Below, in pieces: positions 6,290 to 60,670 of a DNA stretch of 64,000 bases. Each line of letters starts with the position of its first letter. The first letter of the stretch is position 1. The DNA is taken from NCBI RefSeq assembly GCF_000423345.1, contig NZ_AUHU01000005.1:248001-312000 (forward strand), in the 5' to 3' direction. The translations under genes and the position numbers were made by a program. This stretch comes from Marinimicrobium agarilyticum DSM 16975 (GTDB lineage Bacteria; Pseudomonadota; Gammaproteobacteria; Pseudomonadales; Cellvibrionaceae). The notes beneath the pieces were generated by a model. The model was given only the letters and a program-made list of their open reading frames with translations. It was not told the origin of the DNA and ran no database searches.

Positions 6290-6661
6290 TTATCCTCTAC
6301 CGCTCGCGCGCAAGCGTCGAGCCACCCAGGCGTGGTACCAGCGGGATAACAAACCGCGAATGCCGGGTAGTCCGATCAGCTAAGCCAGGGGGCGTAACAG
6401 CCAGGTTCGCCGCATCAACAGAATGTAGGCATCCAGTTCCCGGTGTATTTTTCCCTCGGCATCGCGCACATGCAGTTCGCGCAAAGCGCGTTCGGGGTCT
6501 ATACCCATTTGCTCCAGCTCGGAGTCACGGCCGGTAATGTCGACCCACTGTACGGATTCTCCGGCCTTGCCCGCCATGCGTTCGTAGCGTCGCCGGTCAG
6601 CGCGGCAACGGGGGCAGGCGCCGTCGTAGTAAACGATCAAGTGCTCTGTGGGGGTGCTCAT
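6290..6661 (-). pseudogene. DCC-family (DUF393) thiol oxidoreductase-like gene interrupted by an amber codon
   Basis: Translation from the ATG at 6661 gives YYDGACPRCRADRR near the N-terminus (the DxxCxxC-type DCC motif) and WVDITGRD, typical of the DUF393 family, but stops at TAG (6382-6380) after 93 residues (...LLRPLA). Past this codon the same frame stays open for 29 more codons to TAA at 6292-6290 and reads LIGLPGIRGLLSRWYHAWVA followed by an Arg-rich end. That is the normal C-terminus of the family, where the residue after PLA is usually Trp, so TGG to TAG is the likely change. Either this is a recent nonsense mutation or sequencing error, or the short form is made. It is divergent from the serine hydrolase gene. 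Confidence 0.75.
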
Positions 6662-6770
6662 TTTTCGGAACCTGTCTGTTGCTGAGCTTTAATGGACGCC
6701 CTGGCTAACGTATCTCCCGTATAGAAGGTAACATAGCAACTTGACGCTAATACAGTGACTGGAGCTACTG

Positions 6771-8084
6771 ATGAAAATATTGAATATCGGTTGGGTATGG
6801 GGACTTACGGCCTTGCTGGCAGTGGGCTGTACGAATATAGCCCCGTCCGAGGGCTTTGATTATCCGTCGGACATTGCTCAGGTGGGAGCTGATCCGGTCA
6901 AAGCGCAGGAGATTGACGCTCTGTTGCAATCCTTTGTGGACGAGCAGAAAGCCAACAGTGTGGTGGCGTTTGTGGCCCGCGATGGCAAGGTGCTGTATCT
7001 GGATGCGTTTGGTTGGAGAGACCTTGAAGAGGGCGTACCAGCCAGCGTCGATGACTACTACGCGCTCTTCTCCCAAACCAAGGCTGTGACGACCGTGGCG
7101 TTTATGACACTGGTGGAGAAGGGGCTGGTGGATATCCATGACCCGGTCTCAAAGTACTTCCCCGGTATTCCGGACCAGGTGATTACCGAACTCAATGATG
7201 ACGGCACCTACGAAACCCGCCCCGTTGAAACCCCGATGACCTTCGTCCACCTGATGGCTCACACCTCGGGGCTGGATGCCGGGTTGGCGGCAGACCTTCG
7301 GCGTCAGAAAACTGGTCGGTCCATGGGCTTTATCGGGTTCGGGGGTGAAGAGCCCGATTTTACCCCCATAGGGCAGCACACGGCCGGCGGGGATTATCAC
7401 TCCGAATATCTTGAACAGGAAATGCTGGCTCTGGCGCAATACCCGCTGGGCTTTGAGCCCGGAACGCAGTGGCACTATCACCCGAGTACCAACATGCTGG
7501 GGTATATGATCGAGCGTATTTCGGGTCAGTCGCTGCGCGATTACGTTAAGGAGAACGTGCTGGATCCGTTGGGCATGAAGGACACGGACTGGTTCCACGC
7601 GCCAGAGGCGTATGACCGCTTCGTAAAACCCTATCGCGCCTTGGAGGGTGAACTGGTGCCGGGTACAGAGGTGTACATCAAAGGCGCACTGAACGAACAG
7701 CAGAGTTACGCCGAGGGCGCCATTGGCCTGAACGGGCCGATTGAAGACTATGCCAAGTTCTGTCAGATGCTGCTGAACAAAGGGGAGTTCAACGGCGTGC
7801 GAATTCTGGAACCGGAAACCGTTGAGCTGATGACAACAGTGAACCGCCTGCCCGAGGAAAGCCAACCCTTTGAGTTTGGTTTGGGGTTTGAACTGTTTAA
7901 CGCCGACAAGGAGCCAGTGCCGGCAGTGTCCAGCTCGGCTTATGCCTGGGGCGGGCTATTGGGGACCGCGTACATCATCGATCCGGAGAACAATATGATC
8001 GCGCTGTTTTACCGGAATATGTACGAGCGCGAGGAACTGTACCCGCAGTTTCTGGAAAAAGCGTACGAGTTGATCGAAAAATAA
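6771..8084 (+). CDS. Serine hydrolase / class C beta-lactamase-like lipoprotein
   Basis: 437 residues with a lipoprotein-type signal (…ALLAVGC, Cys ~21), so probably membrane-anchored in the periplasm. The SxxK nucleophile motif appears as SQTK in YYALFSQTKAVTTVAF (~102), and YHPSTNMLGYMIE (~240) matches the Tyr-containing second motif. This is the beta-lactamase-fold family that also contains esterases and D-aminopeptidases; there is nothing to show that it degrades antibiotics. GGAG precedes the ATG at good spacing. The gene is monocistronic, with a hairpin just after the stop. Confidence 0.8.
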   Translation: MKILNIGWVWGLTALLAVGCTNIAPSEGFDYPSDIAQVGADPVKAQEIDALLQSFVDEQKANSVVAFVARDGKVLYLDAFGWRDLEEGVPASVDDYYALFSQTKAVTTVAFMTLVEKGLVDIHDPVSKYFPGIPDQVITELNDDGTYETRPVETPMTFVHLMAHTSGLDAGLAADLRRQKTGRSMGFIGFGGEEPDFTPIGQHTAGGDYHSEYLEQEMLALAQYPLGFEPGTQWHYHPSTNMLGYMIERISGQSLRDYVKENVLDPLGMKDTDWFHAPEAYDRFVKPYRALEGELVPGTEVYIKGALNEQQSYAEGAIGLNGPIEDYAKFCQMLLNKGEFNGVRILEPETVELMTTVNRLPEESQPFEFGLGFELFNADKEPVPAVSSSAYAWGGLLGTAYIIDPENNMIALFYRNMYEREELYPQFLEKAYELIEK

Positions 8085-48771: not shown

Positions 48772-48799
48772 GCATCCAAAGTGGGACTTCAACCGTTAG
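48772..48799 (+). promoter_or_regulatory. Candidate ECF promoter of the sigma gene
   Basis: GCATCC (48772-48777), 16-nt spacer, CGTTAG (48794-48799). The wider match ATCCAAA-N12-CCGTTNG recurs with identical spacing before the DUF4331 gene, which points to autoregulation by the encoded sigma factor. Confidence 0.65.
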
Positions 48800-48845
48800 G
48801 TGTATAGTTGTCCCATCAATCCAATAACGAAAGAGATCAAATATT

Positions 48846-49391
48846 ATGGATGAGCCTTCCAACCCTTATTTGCCCCTGCTGAGCCGAACCGCACAGGGCG
48901 ATGAAGGCGCGTTTGCGCAGCTCTACAGAGCGACCTCCGGCAAGCTCTATGCCGTCAGCCTGCAAATGCTCCATCGTCAGGACTGGGCGGAAGACGTCGT
49001 TCAGGAGGCGTTTGTGCGCATTTGGCACAATGCCGGGGAATACCAGTCCGAAAAGGGCACGGTCCTTTCCTGGATGATCAGTATTGCTCGCTATCGTGCT
49101 CTGGACATGTTGCGCGCCGCGAAAAGCCGGCGGGAGACCAGCGAGGAGGAGGGCCCCACTCAAGAGGACCCTCACTCCCCGGAGGTGGCGCTCTATCAAA
49201 AGCGCGAAAGGGCGGACATTGACGATTGTATGGACCTCCTGGAGGGCTCTCAGCGCCATGCCATTCATTTGGCGTACTTCCTGGGATTGACGCACTTTGA
49301 GGTGTGTAATCGGTTGGCCTCGCCCCTGGGGTCGGTGAAGAGCTGGATTCGCCGAGGCCTGGAACGTTTGAAAAGGTGCCTTGAACCATGA
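48846..49391 (+). CDS. ECF-type RNA polymerase sigma factor
   Basis: 181 residues. Region 2 is FAQLYRATSGKLYAVSLQML with DWAEDVVQEAFVRIWHNAGE and TVLSWMISIARYRALDMLR (~20-98); region 4 is HAIHLAYFLGLTHFEVCNRL with GSVKSWIRRGLERLK (~135-178). The type resembles SigK-like group members paired with RskA-type anti-sigma factors, and the next gene, overlapping by 4 bp, encodes one. Likely targets are its own promoter and the DUF4331 operon. Confidence 0.92.
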   Translation: MDEPSNPYLPLLSRTAQGDEGAFAQLYRATSGKLYAVSLQMLHRQDWAEDVVQEAFVRIWHNAGEYQSEKGTVLSWMISIARYRALDMLRAAKSRRETSEEEGPTQEDPHSPEVALYQKRERADIDDCMDLLEGSQRHAIHLAYFLGLTHFEVCNRLASPLGSVKSWIRRGLERLKRCLEP

Positions 49392-50119
49392 ATTATCTGA
49401 CACAAGAGCGTCGCAATGCGCTGGCAGCCGAATACGCGCTCGGGACCCTTCAGGGGCCGGCGAGGGTACGTTTTCAACAACTGATGATGGAACACAGAGC
49501 ACTACGCAAAACCGTCTGGCACTGGGAGCGCGGACTCAACGGTTTGGGGGAAGCTCTGCCGGAACAGTCGCTTCGCCCCGAAGTGTGGGAGCGTATCAAG
49601 TCCCGCTTGGGGATGGAGGGCCGGAACGATGGTTCAGGCAACACTTCTGATAATATCGTGCCGATATCCAGCGGGGCGTCGCGACAACCAAGCCGTTCCT
49701 GGCAGTGGCTTGCGGGCCTTTCCACGGCGGCGGCGATTATTCTCGCCGTACTGTTGGTCTGGCAACCCGGCGGCATTACAGAACCCGAAAGTGCGCAACA
49801 GTTGGCCGTGGTCCAAAATGAAGAGGCGGAGCCGCTGTGGTTTATTGAGGTGGTCGAATCGGCGATTCGAGTTCGAGCGACAAGCCAGTTGGATCCGCGC
49901 GCCAATCGCGATTACGAGCTTTGGTTGGTGGCTGCCGACGGCCGCGACCCGGTGTCTCTGGGGCTGTTGCCCAAGCGGGGGACCGGTGAGCTCCCTCGCA
50001 GTGATCTGTTAGATCAGGTTGAGGTGGCCGCGTTGGCCGTTAGTCTGGAACCGTTGGGTGGCTCCCCCACGGGGCAACCGACAACGGTGCTCTATACGGC
50101 GAAACCTGTGACGCTGTAG
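49388..50119 (+). CDS. RskA-type membrane anti-sigma factor
   Basis: 243 residues. Cytoplasmic N-terminal ~110 residues with RRNALAAEYALGTLQGPARV (the anti-sigma core of this family), one transmembrane span (WLAGLSTAAAIILAVLLVW, ~115-133) and a periplasmic RskA C-domain (IRVRATSQLDPRANRDYELW, GLLPKRGTG). It should hold the sigma factor inactive until proteolysis or a periplasmic signal. ATG overlaps the sigma gene. Confidence 0.88.
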   Translation: MNYLTQERRNALAAEYALGTLQGPARVRFQQLMMEHRALRKTVWHWERGLNGLGEALPEQSLRPEVWERIKSRLGMEGRNDGSGNTSDNIVPISSGASRQPSRSWQWLAGLSTAAAIILAVLLVWQPGGITEPESAQQLAVVQNEEAEPLWFIEVVESAIRVRATSQLDPRANRDYELWLVAADGRDPVSLGLLPKRGTGELPRSDLLDQVEVAALAVSLEPLGGSPTGQPTTVLYTAKPVTL

Positions 50120-50136
50120 TCGTTACGTTGTTGATC

Positions 50137-50162
50137 AAAGCCCGCCTCGGCGGGCTTTTTTT
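50137..50162 (+). terminator. Rho-independent terminator after the anti-sigma gene
   Basis: GCCCGC-CTCG-GCGGGC stem-loop with a seven-T tail, 18 bp after the stop; it separates the sigma pair from the DUF4331 operon. Confidence 0.9.
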
Positions 50163-50246
50163 ATGGCTTTAAAAATCCCTTATTTCAAAACGGGATAGAA
50201 AGTCGCGATCGGCGTGCAAAGAATTATCAAAAAAACACATTTTTTT

Positions 50247-50274
50247 GAATCCAAAAGCTCATTCGAGCCGTTTG
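50247..50274 (+). promoter_or_regulatory. Candidate ECF promoter of the DUF4331 operon
   Basis: GAATCC (50247-50252), 16-nt spacer, CGTTTG (50269-50274), 70 bp before the DUF4331 start. It matches the element before the sigma gene in both boxes and in spacing. Confidence 0.65.
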
Positions 50275-50343: not shown

Positions 50344-51933
50344 ATGAAGATCAACACTCTATCCATTGTTATCGGCACGCTATGCACTGGCATGGTAGCC
50401 GCTAATGCGCTGGCCTCCAGCCATCGGGAAGCGCCGAACATTACCCGCATGCCCGCCGTCGACTCTACGGACTTTTACGCCTTCAACAGCTATGAAGAAG
50501 GGCGCGGTGATTACGTAACATTGATCGCCAACTACCTACCCTTGCAAGATGCCTACGGCGGTCCCAACTACTTTGCGCTGGACCCGTCTGCTGTATACAG
50601 CATCCATATCGACAACGATGGCGATGCCGTAGAAGACATCACCTACCAATTTCGTTTCAATCAGTCTCTGCCTGGAGAAACCGGTGTTGCGCTGACGATT
50701 GGCCCGGAAGGCAATACCCGCGAGGTGGCTATACCTCTGAAAAACGTGGGCGGAATTTCCGCTGCTGACCAAGCGAATGCCAATTTCATAGAAACCTATG
50801 AGCTGACCGTTGTGGAGGGTGACCGACGCACCGGTACGGCAATGAATGTTCAGAATGCGCAGATGGGCGGCACGACCTTTGAAAAGCCGCTGGACTTCAT
50901 CGGCACCAAGACCTTCAGCTCCCGCGAGGGCTATGCCGAGTACGCCAATAGCTTCATTCATGAAGTGGCGTTGCCCAACTGTGAAACGAATGGTCGAGTG
51001 TTTGTGGGCCAGCGTAAAGATCCCTTTGCCGTCAACCTGGGCAATACCTTCGATCTGGTGAACTATGTGCCCATTGAAGGCGACAGCGCTCGTGGTGCGG
51101 GCGATGGAGAAGGCTTCCCGGGTGGTATTACGCAGAACATGAATAATGACGATCTGCGTCATAAAAACGTGACTGCTTTGTCTCTGGAAATCCCGAAAAG
51201 CTGTGTGACTGGCGATGGCAATGGCACCATCGGCGCCTGGACCACCGCGAGTCTACCGCAAGCTCGTATTCTCAATCCGGATGCCAGTTTCAACAACACC
51301 GAAGTGAATGGTGGTGCGCTGACTCAGGTGTCCCGTCTCGGGAACCCGTTGGTCAATGAGTTGGTGATCGGCCTGAAAGACAAAGACCGCTTCTCCAGCG
51401 CTGAGCCCAAAGACGACATTCAGTTCGCGGATTACGTGACTCATCCGAGTCTGCCCGAGCTGCTGAATATCCTCTTCAAGGATGCCGTCAATCAGACTCT
51501 GGGCACCAATATGGACACCCTCGCGCCCACCAACTTCCCGCGCAATGACCTGTTGACTGCGTTCCTGACCGGCTTTGAAGGTGTCAACCAACTGGCCGCA
51601 GTGACCCCCTCGGAAATGCTGCGTCTGAACACCGGTATTGCGGCGAAACCGGCGGCCGAGCAGTCTGCCTTCGGTGTGGCCGGTGATGACCTGGCCGGGT
51701 TTCCGAACGGGCGCCGTCCCGGTGACGACGTGGTCGACATCGCGCTGCGCGTTGTGATGGGACGTCTGTGCTACCCGATTCCGGTCAATGGAGAAGCAAC
51801 GGATCTGGGTCTGTGTCAGCCGGAAGACGCCAATGTGGGCGAGGTGGCCTTTACCGACGGCGCCCCGGTGGATGCCGGAATGATGAACGTGGCCTTCCCC
51901 TACCTGGCTGAGCCGGTCCCCGGTTCTGAATAA
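50344..51933 (+). CDS. DUF4331 family secreted protein
   Basis: 529 residues from ATG 50344; the upstream frame extension has no signal. Signal peptide ends near ANALAS; SSHREAPNITRMPAVDSTDFY is the DUF4331 start, with HIDNDGDAVEDITYQFRF (~85), a NTFDLVNYVP segment and a conserved end. No biochemical function is known to me for this family. First gene of a four-gene set with a cadherin-like lipoprotein, a TPR protein and a HupE/UreJ-like membrane protein. Confidence 0.88.
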   Translation: MKINTLSIVIGTLCTGMVAANALASSHREAPNITRMPAVDSTDFYAFNSYEEGRGDYVTLIANYLPLQDAYGGPNYFALDPSAVYSIHIDNDGDAVEDITYQFRFNQSLPGETGVALTIGPEGNTREVAIPLKNVGGISAADQANANFIETYELTVVEGDRRTGTAMNVQNAQMGGTTFEKPLDFIGTKTFSSREGYAEYANSFIHEVALPNCETNGRVFVGQRKDPFAVNLGNTFDLVNYVPIEGDSARGAGDGEGFPGGITQNMNNDDLRHKNVTALSLEIPKSCVTGDGNGTIGAWTTASLPQARILNPDASFNNTEVNGGALTQVSRLGNPLVNELVIGLKDKDRFSSAEPKDDIQFADYVTHPSLPELLNILFKDAVNQTLGTNMDTLAPTNFPRNDLLTAFLTGFEGVNQLAAVTPSEMLRLNTGIAAKPAAEQSAFGVAGDDLAGFPNGRRPGDDVVDIALRVVMGRLCYPIPVNGEATDLGLCQPEDANVGEVAFTDGAPVDAGMMNVAFPYLAEPVPGSE

Positions 51934-51943
51934 GGAGAGCATC

Positions 51944-52450
51944 ATGAAATCGATGAATCTTTTGATAACGGCAACGTGTGGGTTGCTGGTGATTGGTTGC
52001 GGAAGCGATGACAACTATCCGGACATAAAAGATCCGGGTGGTAATGCGGCTCCCACGGCCAGTGACGCCAGCTTTACCACTCAGACAGACACCGAGCTGA
52101 CGGGCGAGTTGATGGCAATGGACGACGATGGCGATGATTTGACCTTCGCCCTGGTCGATCAGGCAACCAACGGTACCGTGACAGTGGAAGATGGCGGTAT
52201 GTTCTTCTATCAGCCCAATGCCACGGTGACAGGGAGTGACAGCTTTACCTTTGAAGTGTCTGACGGAGAAGCCACGTCCAGTGTCGCCGTGGTCGATATT
52301 ACGGTCGAGGCGTTGGAAGTGTCGTTCAGCACCTACAGTCGGCAGGCATTCGAACAGCAGCCGACGGATGAGCCGTTGCCGGTCAATGGTCGGGCGTTTG
52401 AGCAGGATGTGACGCAGCCGGATGCTTACGACGACCTGCTGATGCAGTAA
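51944..52450 (+). CDS. Cadherin/Ig-like repeat lipoprotein
   Basis: 168 residues. Lipoprotein signal with Cys in LLVIGCGSDD (~19). Residues ~35-110 form one cadherin-like/VCBS-type module: NAAPTASDASFTTQTDTELT, AMDDDGDDLTFALVDQATNG and DSFTFEVSDGEATSSVAVVD. The tail (~120-168) is acidic and unrecognised. It lies 10 bp after the DUF4331 gene and may be its surface partner. Confidence 0.78.
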   Translation: MKSMNLLITATCGLLVIGCGSDDNYPDIKDPGGNAAPTASDASFTTQTDTELTGELMAMDDDGDDLTFALVDQATNGTVTVEDGGMFFYQPNATVTGSDSFTFEVSDGEATSSVAVVDITVEALEVSFSTYSRQAFEQQPTDEPLPVNGRAFEQDVTQPDAYDDLLMQ

Positions 52451-52516
52451 AGATGCGCGCGCGGTAGGCCAGGGAGGCCTATCGCGCTTTTCGGTTCTGG
52501 TGAATGGGTAATGTGA

Positions 52517-53596
52517 ATGAAAGTCAGCATTATAGTGAGTGTATTGGTCACACTGAGCTGTTCCGTCAATGCGAGCCCTGAAACTCCTCAGTCGCGAGAC
52601 GATGTGGTGGCCCGTTGGGAGCCTCGCCAAGATCAAACAATGAGCGTGCTCCAAAGCCGGTGGGCGGAGCAGCCCGGGGCAATGCTGGAGCAGGTTCAGA
52701 GAATGCTCGACCGGGCATCGCGTCCCGGCTATGCCCACTTGTATGGACAGGCAGAGAAGCAGTTATCCGTCCCGGTACATAATGACAGTGAGCGCATGCT
52801 CGTATGGTTGCTCTGGGCGGAGGTTGAGCAACATCAACACAATTTTGATTCGGCTCTGTCGGCATTGGGTCGGGTGTTTGAGAGCGACTCCACCCATGTG
52901 GAGGCCAGACTGATGGCGGCCCGTATTCGTTTGATACAGGGTGAGTACGAACAGGCGCGTCAGCATTGCCTGGCTCTGATCGGGAACACCGATCTGTTGA
53001 CGGCCAGTATCTGCGCGTTGGAGGTGGCCAGCTACCGGGGCTCGCTCAAGAGCAGCTATCAACAGCTCACGGCGCTGGTGGCGCGCCAAGGGGTTCCCGA
53101 AGACGCGCGCGGCGCCTGGGTGGTTCAGATGCTGGCGGATATGGCCCTTCGCCTGGAGCAAGCTGAAGAGGCGGCGCACTGGCTGGATCAGCGCTTTTCC
53201 AATGCCAATGTCAGCTACTTGCTACAGTGGGCCGATGCGCAACTCGCACTGGCTCAATTCGAGGTCGTCATGCGGCGGTTGGAACCTATTGTGGACGCAG
53301 CACCGGCTGTGGATGACAGTTTGGCACTGCGGCTGGCGCTAGCGGAAAAGGCGCTGGAGGGGCGTAAGTGGCAGGATTACATTGCCTCCAGAATGACGTT
53401 GCGGGTGCAGCGTGAAGATACCGAACACGCCGCGGATTTGGCCCGATACTATCTTCATTTGGAGCCAAACCCCGAAAAAGCGTTGCACTGGGCGGAGGTT
53501 AACTGGGAGTCCGCGCGCGAGCATGCAGATCGCCAATTGTTATTGCAAGCACGAAATGGGGTAAAGAAACCATCCCCGGACGGGGAGAGTGAATGA
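52517..53596 (+). CDS. TPR-repeat secreted protein
   Basis: 359 residues with a signal peptide ending near SVNAS. The rest is helical repeat, with TPR-like units (NFDSALSALGRVFESDSTHVEARLMAARIRL..., EYEQARQHCLALIG). It has no catalytic motif. It probably works as an adaptor in the envelope with its operon neighbours; the last four bases overlap the next gene. Confidence 0.72.
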   Translation: MKVSIIVSVLVTLSCSVNASPETPQSRDDVVARWEPRQDQTMSVLQSRWAEQPGAMLEQVQRMLDRASRPGYAHLYGQAEKQLSVPVHNDSERMLVWLLWAEVEQHQHNFDSALSALGRVFESDSTHVEARLMAARIRLIQGEYEQARQHCLALIGNTDLLTASICALEVASYRGSLKSSYQQLTALVARQGVPEDARGAWVVQMLADMALRLEQAEEAAHWLDQRFSNANVSYLLQWADAQLALAQFEVVMRRLEPIVDAAPAVDDSLALRLALAEKALEGRKWQDYIASRMTLRVQREDTEHAADLARYYLHLEPNPEKALHWAEVNWESAREHADRQLLLQARNGVKKPSPDGESE

Positions 53597-54708
53597 TGCG
53601 CTACCTCTGTTTGCTTGTTCTTGTCAGTTTGGCCAGCACCGCGCAAGCGCATCAACTCAGTACCGCATATCTGGATGCGACGGTGGATTCCACCGGTCAG
53701 GTTGAGTTGCAGTGGCAAGCGCGCTTTTACGATTGGGAGCGAGCGGTGGGGCTCGACCAGGATCGTAATGGTGAACTCCAGTGGGGAGAAGTGCTCAATG
53801 GTGCCGAGCGCTTGGAGCAATACGCCCAACAGAACCTGATAGTGGCGCGAGGCGACCACAAGTGCCAACTGGCGTTTAGCGGTCCCTGGAAAACGGAACA
53901 ACACTTTCGTGAGGGTTACCTGGTTTTACCGATGCGGGCGCAGTGCCCACTGGCCGGTGAGCTCACGCTTCGCTACCATGCCTTTTTTGAACAGCAACGG
54001 GATCACAAACTGATCGTGACGGTTGATCATGAGGGCGCTGAAAGGCCAGGCTCAGCCCACACCCGGCTGATACATGAAGACCAACCGTTGATCGCCGTGT
54101 CCGACGCCGGTGGCAGTTTACTAAAAACGGTCGTGGAGTTTGTGAAAGAAGGCGTCATTCACATATGGATTGGCCTCGATCATATTCTTTTTTTGCTGTC
54201 GTTATTGTTGACCTGCGTTCTGGTTCGTCGCCGTGGAGCGTGGCAATCCGAAAGCAATACACGACGTGTGGTCTCTAACACATTCTGGGTGGTAACGGCT
54301 TTTACCCTGGCGCACTCGGTGACTTTGACTGCCACGGCGCTGGGATGGGTAACCCCGAGTAGTCAATGGGTTGAAGTTGTGATCGCGGTCTCTGTCGCGC
54401 TTGCCGCGTTGAATAACCTTTATCCGATCATTCGGCGGCTCTCTTGGATGACTTTCGTGTTCGGACTGATTCACGGTTTCGGGTTTGCCGGTGTGCTCGG
54501 TGAGCTTGGCGTGCCGGCGGATCAGGCTGTGCCTTCAGTTCTGGCCTTCAACCTCGGCGTGGAAATCGGGCAACTGTCCATTGTGTTGTTGATTCTGCCT
54601 CTGCTGATGGCCGCACGAAACTATCGGTGGTATTCCAAAGTGGTAATGCCGGCACTGTCTTTGATAGTTGCGCTAGTGGCCATCCTGTGGGTGATTGAGC
54701 GAGTGTAA
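53593..54708 (+). CDS. HupE/UreJ-type membrane protein
   Basis: 371 residues. Signal peptide ending AQAHQ, a periplasmic ~170-residue domain, then about six membrane spans with His-rich family motifs: GVIHIWIGLDHILFLLSLLL, FTLAHSVTLTATAL, GLIHGFGFAGVLGEL and LAFNLGVEIGQL. HupE/UreJ relatives are linked to nickel or cobalt handling, and this long form with an N-terminal periplasmic domain is widespread without proven substrate. No hydrogenase or urease genes are near. Confidence 0.85.
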   Translation: MMRYLCLLVLVSLASTAQAHQLSTAYLDATVDSTGQVELQWQARFYDWERAVGLDQDRNGELQWGEVLNGAERLEQYAQQNLIVARGDHKCQLAFSGPWKTEQHFREGYLVLPMRAQCPLAGELTLRYHAFFEQQRDHKLIVTVDHEGAERPGSAHTRLIHEDQPLIAVSDAGGSLLKTVVEFVKEGVIHIWIGLDHILFLLSLLLTCVLVRRRGAWQSESNTRRVVSNTFWVVTAFTLAHSVTLTATALGWVTPSSQWVEVVIAVSVALAALNNLYPIIRRLSWMTFVFGLIHGFGFAGVLGELGVPADQAVPSVLAFNLGVEIGQLSIVLLILPLLMAARNYRWYSKVVMPALSLIVALVAILWVIERV

Positions 54709-60412: not shown

Positions 60413-60670
60413 ATGCCCCAGGAAAAAGTACGGAATCTGATTACCCAGATGCATGAGATGTATGGGAGTGAAGAGCCCAGTGAGCCGCAGAAGCGCCTCA
60501 TGGAGCAGCTGGAGCTGCATACTCACCCCAAGGGGACCAAAGATCAGTATGGAGAGCCAGTGCCGCTGGATACGCTGGAGATGCTGGTGGAGGAGATGGC
60601 CGCCGAGCATCCCCGTACGGCTGGGGTGATGAGAGAGATTCTGGAAACACTGAAGAATATCGGGGTGTAG
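60413..60670 (+). CDS. DUF4404 family small protein
   Basis: 85 residues, acidic and helical: EKVRNLITQMHEMYGSEEPS, KRLMEQLELHTHPKG and MLVEEMAAEHPRTAGVMREI. It fits the DUF4404 family of short helical gammaproteobacterial proteins with no known role. ATG 60413 follows AGAGGTG. A terminator follows. Confidence 0.75.
   Translation: MPQEKVRNLITQMHEMYGSEEPSEPQKRLMEQLELHTHPKGTKDQYGEPVPLDTLEMLVEEMAAEHPRTAGVMREILETLKNIGV

Follow-up and report, generated by a model that had tools for sequence, protein, structure and literature searches.

A probable SigK/RskA-type switch with two matched predicted promoters, one before a DUF4331-HupE operon that may capture copper or nickel, in Marinimicrobium agarilyticum

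We analysed a 64,000-nucleotide (nt) stretch of the Marinimicrobium agarilyticum DSM 16975 genome (NZ_AUHU01000005.1, positions 248,001-312,000, forward strand; hereafter the window, whose numbering is used below). It carries a gene pair for an extracytoplasmic function (ECF) sigma factor and a membrane anti-sigma factor, and next to it a four-gene operon that begins with a DUF4331 gene and ends with a HupE permease gene. We found the same two-box element before the sigma gene and before the DUF4331 gene, and in the nearest relatives this element went together with the sigma gene. Judged by sequence comparison, the link between the one sigma factor and the two promoters at this locus is very probable. 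Metal handling by the operon is fairly probable, considering the N-termini of its products and a fold match. Both together, a SigK/RskA-type switch and an operon for periplasmic capture of copper (Cu) and/or nickel (Ni), form the reading that we favour, with slightly less assurance than the metal role alone. The elements on which this reading turns are the following.

48772..48799, + strand: GCATCC-N16-CGTTAG, the predicted ECF promoter of the sigma/anti-sigma pair, with transcription expected to start about 48806; rare genome-wide, and found upstream of 49 of 67 sigma genes
48846..49391, + strand: gene for a SigK-like ECF sigma factor of 181 amino acids; Cys128 and Cys178 correspond to SigK Cys133 and Cys183; best solved relative 4nqw
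49388..50119, + strand: gene for an RskA-type anti-sigma factor with a cytoplasmic N-terminal domain, one membrane helix (about residues 108-127, by eye) and an RskA_C outer domain (PF10099, E 4e-20)
50247..50274, + strand: GAATCC-N16-CGTTTG, the predicted ECF promoter of the DUF4331 operon, with transcription expected to start about 50281; found in 70 of 85 DUF4331 upstream regions
50344..51933, + strand: gene for a DUF4331 secreted protein (PF14224, E 5.5e-148) with a predicted mature N-terminus Ser-Ser-His of the amino-terminal Cu(II)/Ni(II)-binding (ATCUN) type, Ser-Ser-His in 85 of 85 loci

Two boxes at a fixed spacing are the general form of ECF promoters. Upstream of the sigma gene, GCATCC (48772-48777) and CGTTAG (48794-48799) enclose a 16-nt spacer and the ATG follows at 48846; upstream of the DUF4331 gene, GAATCC (50247-50252) and CGTTTG (50269-50274) enclose a spacer of the same length and the ATG follows at 50344. 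Both boxes, their exact spacing and the wider match ATCCAAA-N12-CCGTTNG had been pointed out in an earlier note made from the letters of this DNA, and all were exact at both places, base for base. The scan of the genome for the motif that the note proposed was carried out on 4.5 Mb in 29 contigs. The form ATCCAA-N13-CCGTT had four exact matches, two of them these promoters, and the strict motif GMATCCAA-N14-CGTW had three, while its reversed form, used as a control, had none. The third strict match lies on the same strand within a long open reading frame (814 codons open, 799 from the first start codon), so that the strict pattern returned both promoters, one in-frame match and no further target in this genome. 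The predicted regulon is very small, with these two promoters as its known sites in the genome. When up to two mismatches were allowed, the window alone held 17 matches with 16.0 expected by chance, and therefore it is the exact matches and the conservation that carry the case. On the minus strand of the window, near 60641, a third match of looser form had no gene behind it. No RNA families were found at the gathering threshold between 47500 and 56500, and no tRNA genes within the window. In the genomes of three relatives (G002, G006 and G034) the strict motif occurred 3, 5 and 9 times and the reversed control 0, 2 and 3 times, several of the matches being within frames.

Conservation was studied in a main set of 86 loci, namely the window, L009-L013 and L018-L097. 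They were obtained from a search of 58 genomes, the own genome included, of which six held a nearly full-length DUF4331, and from a genome scan giving the best 80 of at least 568 candidates with a relative; these 80 are the loci nearest to the window and were not randomly drawn. L022 and L010 are one and the same genome. Upstream regions were used for DUF4331 in 85 loci (L096, for which no start was obtained, was dropped) and for sigma in 67 of the 74 loci with a sigma match above 100 bits; the sigma starts of L035, L036, L037 and L051 were unpicked or mispicked, and their sites surfaced in a separate motif scan. A locus was counted as bearing the pair at more than 190 bits for sigma and more than 140 bits for rskA, and matches above 100 bits that stayed under these thresholds were treated as distant or unpaired sigma. 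Besides, a class-wide sample of 20 regions was taken from 24 match rows (omitting the own genome, one fragment and two second-place rows in G151), in which L168 appears to be a record of L082 with the same site, and a phylum-wide sample of 10 loci was taken from 13 matches, the other three having been seen already.

In the main set, ATCC and CGT at a spacing of 16 nt were present in 61 of the 85 DUF4331 upstream regions and in 37 of the 67 sigma upstream regions, while any other spacing from 5 to 30 nt gave at most 6 and at most 3, respectively. The comparative motif ATC[CT]-N16-CGT[AT] preceded 70 of the 85 DUF4331 genes and 49 of the 67 sigma genes; its reverse complement was found in 5 and 1 of these regions, and 100 dinucleotide shuffles gave 1.05 and 0.77 on average and never more than 6 and 4. 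The motif was nearly confined to these two genes, since it stood before other genes of the loci in only 1 of 260 cases (TPR 1/69, HupE 0/57, Ig-like 0/66, rskA 0/68). Own motif copies controlling the TPR, HupE, Ig-like or rskA genes were rejected on this count. Base columns dictated by the search pattern carry no independent weight, and columns that the pattern leaves unfixed were conserved too, with A at position 7 in 101 of 115 sites and T at position 18 in 81 of 115. In the wider samples the motif preceded DUF4331 in 11 of 20 class-wide loci (spacer of 16 nt in 9 and of 17 nt in 2) and in 9 of 10 phylum-wide loci. Among 177 motif matches in relatives, 17 lay outside known promoters and long frames; apart from the extra sites described below, they were unassigned or before unrelated frames.

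We found that the motif was associated with the sigma gene itself. Where present, the sigma/anti-sigma pair sits upstream of, divergent from or downstream of DUF4331, and 60 of the 64 pair-bearing loci had the motif before DUF4331; of the four others, L054, L057 and L095 have a 17-nt spacer and L013 has none. Four loci had the motif and no local sigma gene. In three of them (L050, L052 and L075) the sigma gene was found elsewhere in the genome, at 226, 219 and 228 bits, each time with its own motif copy upstream; in the fourth, L078, the best genome match was doubtful (138 bits). Seven loci had neither motif nor local sigma gene. Two of these, L079 and L094, are short contigs outside the genome-wide sigma search, and four of the five genomes searched had no sigma above 100 bits (best match 95.2 in L055 and 79.7 in L072, none at E 1e-20 in L062 and L074), with 126.8 bits in the fifth, L086. 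The four comprise three Kangiella and one Alteromonas, so that sigma gene and motif were possibly lost in two separate events. Of 13 more distant genomes searched for sigma, four have the motif and lack a local sigma gene, and all of these held one, at 176-209 bits. Sequence comparison across the main set thus establishes the motif, its spacing, its targets and its association with the sigma gene. The earlier note proposed that one sigma factor drives both its own pair and the four-gene operon; near the window this is supported by the shared motif, its spacing, its targets and the co-occurrence of the sigma gene.

The regulatory pair resembles SigK and RskA. The sigma factor has ECF regions 2 and 4, and its closest NCBIfam model is NF007228 (SigK), at 153.5 bits against a cut-off of 226; it is therefore SigK-like and not SigK proper. 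Its best match in the PDB is 4nqw, the SigK of Mycobacterium tuberculosis (E 7.5e-32). The anti-sigma factor scored 72.9 bits for RskA_C (PF10099), over the cut-off of 29.4, and 95.6 bits for NF052375, slightly short of the cut-off of 100. Both SigK-type cysteines (C128 and C178) were present in 64 of 64 sigma homologues above 190 bits and in 64 of 74 of all sigma matches above 100 bits. The SigK -35 element is CCATCC, near the GCATCC of the window, and its -10 element is CGAAT, where the window type has CGTT or CGTA. By eye, two class-wide loci in which the strict motif is missing (L166 and L169) have GCATCC-N16 followed by GTGAAT or CGAATA upstream of DUF4331, boxes that we take to resemble the mycobacterial SigK -10 element. 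In metal-responsive ECF systems such as CnrH (Ni/Co) and CorE (Cu), the sigma factor likewise controls metal-related envelope genes, but these systems belong to another sigma subfamily and use another sensor, whereas the window has an RskA_C anti-sigma factor; CnrH matched the window sigma factor weakly (9.4e-6).

In the SigK/RskA systems of M. tuberculosis and Yersinia enterocolitica (ECF18/ECF19), an ECF sigma gene is likewise followed by the gene of an RskA_C membrane anti-sigma factor, and the window pair has in common with them both regulatory cysteines and a small regulon. Their targets are of the mpt70/mpt83 type, in contrast to the DUF4331-HupE operon of the window. According to PMC7509140, the oxidised cysteine pair stabilises the SigK-RskA complex, the signal that triggers the cascade is still unknown, and the regulon is small, comprising eleven genes in M. 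tuberculosis and including mpt83 in Y. enterocolitica. No paper on DUF4331, and among the papers listed none on PF14224, was found in the literature searched, a search outside which most subscription papers lie, and the two papers matching ECF, anti-sigma and HupE concern, by title and abstract, cobalt/B12 and agricultural signalling. The switch is of a known kind, and its target operon is not described in the literature searched.

The remaining elements of the locus are listed here.

50137..50158, + strand: terminator-like hairpin between the anti-sigma and DUF4331 genes; hairpin plus T run at 39 of 51 such junctions
51944..52450, + strand: gene for a small lipoprotein with an immunoglobulin (Ig)/cadherin-like domain (PF17963, E 3.4e-18; lipobox VIGC by eye)
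52459..52487, + strand: terminator-like hairpin within the operon, between its second (Ig-like) and third (TPR) genes; possible attenuator
52517..53596, + strand: gene for a TPR-like protein (PF12895, E 1e-8) with an apparent signal peptide (by eye)
53593..54708, + strand: gene for a HupE/UreJ-2 permease (PF13795, E 9.3e-48) with an outer N-terminal domain that starts at His1 and is Ang-1-like (9gce, Z 12.7)

Pfam and NCBIfam agreed with the gene identities of the earlier note (sigma, RskA_C anti-sigma, DUF4331, Ig-like lipoprotein, TPR and HupE_UreJ_2). A hairpin with a T run lies 3' of the anti-sigma gene in 39 of the 51 loci in which DUF4331 is next on the strand, and therefore DUF4331 probably begins a separate transcription unit with its own promoter. 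The same test found such hairpins at 3 of 61 DUF4331/Ig-like junctions, at 1 of 49 TPR/HupE junctions and at 19 of 61 Ig-like/TPR junctions, among which the window has a strong one; considering the last of these, partial attenuation may affect the downstream half of the operon. In several loci the loop of this Ig-like/TPR hairpin (52459-52487 in the window) reads AGGGAGG, AGGGATGG or ATGGATGG, possibly a CsrA-type GGA loop (by eye).

What the operon may do was left open in the earlier note, and the N-termini of two of its products, together with a match of a modelled fold, now point to Cu/Ni capture. A free N-terminal Xaa-Xaa-His is the ATCUN motif for Cu and Ni and binds Cu(II) tightly. The DUF4331 protein (PF14224, 494 bits; cut-off 27) would begin with it. 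If cleavage is placed by the small-residue rule, and not by a signal-peptide predictor, Ser-Ser-His follows a small residue in 85 of 85 main-set loci (84 Ala, 1 Ser), whose starts had been picked with an H-x-EAP-type anchor that contains this His, so that His was partly selected for and the evidence lies in its position two residues past the cleavage pattern, not in its presence. The 86th locus, L096, reads LA|SSHREA. At the predicted cleavage site all 10 phylum-wide loci have Ser-Ser-His, and 19 of 20 class-wide loci have Xaa-Xaa-His (one Ala-Asn-His, the others Ser-Ser-His), with no match in L181; a distant homologue, L014, has Ala-Asp-His. In comparison, these loci encode 495 other proteins with signal-like starts, and 12 of them carry His at +3.

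The HupE protein has the HupE_UreJ_2 membrane domain (PF13795, 162.3 bits; cut-off 24.5), and its outer domain would start with His1 straight after a signal-peptide-like stretch (AQA|HQLS), cleavage being deduced from the sequence. This arrangement was matched by regular expression in 51 of 57 homologues; the HupE alignment A5 was picked with the same kind of N-terminal-His expression, and hence its invariant H1 is not independent evidence. The model of the outer domain had a predicted local distance difference test score (pLDDT) of 91.7. Its best VIA-align match was the Cu-bound Ang-1 domain 9gce (Z 12.7, root-mean-square deviation 3.0 over 131 residues, the first residues of both being aligned), followed by the Zn-binding ZrgA (Z 10.7) and PA4063 (10.1), with the next rows from 7.1; Foldseek placed ZrgA first (6.9e-7) and 9gce eighth (3.2e-6). 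As reported in PMC12537917, the Ang-1 domain of the "anglerase" 9GCE binds Cu with a dissociation constant of 73.6 nM and Ni with one of 220 nM, metal capture for the permease is proposed, and HupE/UreJ-2 domains are termed known nickel permeases. The anglerase has in common with the window protein the PF13795 membrane domain, an outer beta-sandwich with His1, and the fold. The two differ in that structural alignment gives 14% identity and that the window HupE gene belongs to a DUF4331 operon with a predicted ECF promoter; the main text of PMC12537917 has "hupe" 34 times and "duf4331" 0 times, and its section 8 names no sigma regulation. The window HupE (53593-54708) also has an EF-hand-like loop, LDQDRNGELQWGE, in its outer domain, with weak profile matches to calcium-binding proteins.

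In relatives, the motif also adjoined genes outside the operon. L035 and L040 have it before a TonB receptor gene, L044 has it near the beginning of such a gene, and a DUF4198 gene is preceded by it in L035 and in L089; in L089 the DUF4331 gene of the locus has no motif, and the site may be due to chance. DUF4198 is a Ni-binding protein according to PMC12537917, and secreted DUF4198 proteins and TonB receptors belong to the iron/nickel neighbourhoods described in PMC12537917 and PMC7190382. Both adjoin the motif in L035, L040, L044 and L089, taken together, whereas both are absent from the operon of the window. TonB-receptor relatives were present in 18 of the 86 loci, and in three of these a site lies at the beginning of the receptor gene or close to it; against the PDB this receptor gave weak matches to YncD/PqqU and BtuB, from which no ligand was assignable.

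From these observations the following mechanism can be proposed. The membrane anti-sigma factor would hold the sigma factor until its release by an envelope signal, to which the cysteine pair may add a redox input; the freed sigma factor would then guide RNA polymerase to two promoters, both matching G[CA]ATC[CT]A-N15-CGT[TA], at the predicted starts given above. It would thereby transcribe its own sigma/anti-sigma pair, as positive autoregulation, and the operon of DUF4331, Ig-like lipoprotein, TPR and HupE genes, whose products may bind Cu and/or Ni in the periplasm and either move the metal through HupE or store it. A more far-reaching version, which we offer tentatively and with less than even confidence, is that DUF4331 proteins in general are secreted Cu(II)/Ni(II) ATCUN proteins that hand metal to anglerase-type HupE, and that a proteobacterial branch of SigK/RskA is the dedicated switch, with redox input at the cysteines. 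If this were true, the input would couple metal capture to redox state. The analysis provides DUF4331, a family of unknown function, with a likely regulator, with a permease as its partner and with a chemical role that can be tested, and the comparison suggests an output for a branch of proteobacterial SigK/RskA pairs.

Several observations weigh against the combined reading of a SigK/RskA-type switch and a metal-capture operon. On the side of function, the Ser-Ser-His counts depend on the cleavage rule and the anchor mentioned above. The DUF4331 model (pLDDT 77.6, predicted template modelling score 0.82) had no informative fold match, since Foldseek gave none below 0.001 and only Ig-like sandwiches with Z below 6 were matched; in sequence-profile searches of the PDB, DUF4331 and the HupE outer domain gave only chance-level or EF-hand-loop matches, with none between the outer domain and 9gce. 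The window genome has no TonB-receptor relative at E 1e-20. Furthermore, in L098 the motif precedes the gene of a periplasmic glutathione peroxidase (G034:C1:466548-466573, minus strand; the open frame begins 45 nt past the site start), which fits redox as well as metal. On the side of regulation, the missing sigma genes of motif-less genomes may be assembly gaps, one of these genomes being metagenome-assembled, and the 10 main-set loci with only a distant sigma split into 6 with the motif and 4 without. The strict motif is missing before 9 of 20 class-wide DUF4331 genes, and 6 of 9 genomes without it still hold a SigK-like sigma of 169-193 bits. Class-wide, a site before the sigma gene itself was found in 3 of 10 cases, a count that a recheck put at 2 of 10, and phylum-wide in 2 of 8. 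On these counts the DUF4331 site has a wider distribution than the autoregulatory one, and it is for the window and its nearer relatives that the full two-promoter circuit is supported. Some distant sigma genes, for example in L196, follow HupE and may not need a site of their own.

Among the alternatives, the one that survives best is a sub-case of metal capture, namely that the operon serves detoxification or storage and is induced by excess metal. ATCUN sites, being tight Cu(II) binders, would suit such a role. A HupE/UreJ-like gene is the most up-regulated one in nickel-adapted Sphingobium, as stated in PMC5557971. However, the TonB-receptor relatives in 18 of 86 loci, three with a site at or near the start, and the description of HupE/UreJ-2 domains as nickel permeases in PMC12537917 argue for uptake, and we regard detoxification as somewhat unlikely.

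It is also conceivable that the regulon is as described and that its output is an envelope response to redox stress or peroxide instead of metal handling. The cysteine pair, kept in 64 of 64 homologues and reported to be redox-sensitive in SigK (PMC7509140), and the motif before the peroxidase gene in G034 are consistent with this, and glutathione peroxidase genes occur within 6 of the 86 loci. Nevertheless, none of those six neighbouring peroxidase genes has a site of the G[AC]ATC[CT] type, so that peroxidase is no general target; the operon of the window contains no thiol enzyme; and the operon genes recur with an N-terminal His, ATCUN-like termini and the Ang-1 fold. We therefore consider a redox output in place of metal handling improbable.

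That the motif is real and read by another sigma factor or an activator, with the linked sigma gene as a passenger, would agree with the distant genomes that hold a SigK-like sigma without the strict motif and with the distant sigma genes, mostly without a recognisable site. Against it, the main-set motif precedes the sigma gene itself in 49 of 67 cases and also in the three genomes where that gene is unlinked, four of the five motif-less genomes searched lack the sigma gene as well, and the motif has the two-box, fixed-spacing form of ECF promoters; direct recognition by another regulator is thus very unlikely. Coincidence of the two pairs of boxes, for which the chance-level frequency of loose matches in the window might speak, has a negligible probability, and a chance origin of the motif was rejected by the main-set counts against shuffles and controls: the spacing peak of 61 of 85 compares with at most 6 at other spacings and about 1 in shuffles, and the motif recurs in further genomes.

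Three further observations come from relatives. In the alphaproteobacterial loci L083, L088, L089 and L093, a more distant ECF sigma gene lies on the strand opposite an RskA-like gene, so that the regulators are arranged differently, and DUF4331 has no motif. A motif copy after an unlinked sigma/anti-sigma pair (L133:6497) heads the frame of a large NHL-repeat lipoprotein. Finally, the Catenovulum contig of an unlinked sigma gene (L134:6293-7730) encodes a Spondin_N-type secreted protein (7020-7730) and a similar-looking neighbour (6293-7012).

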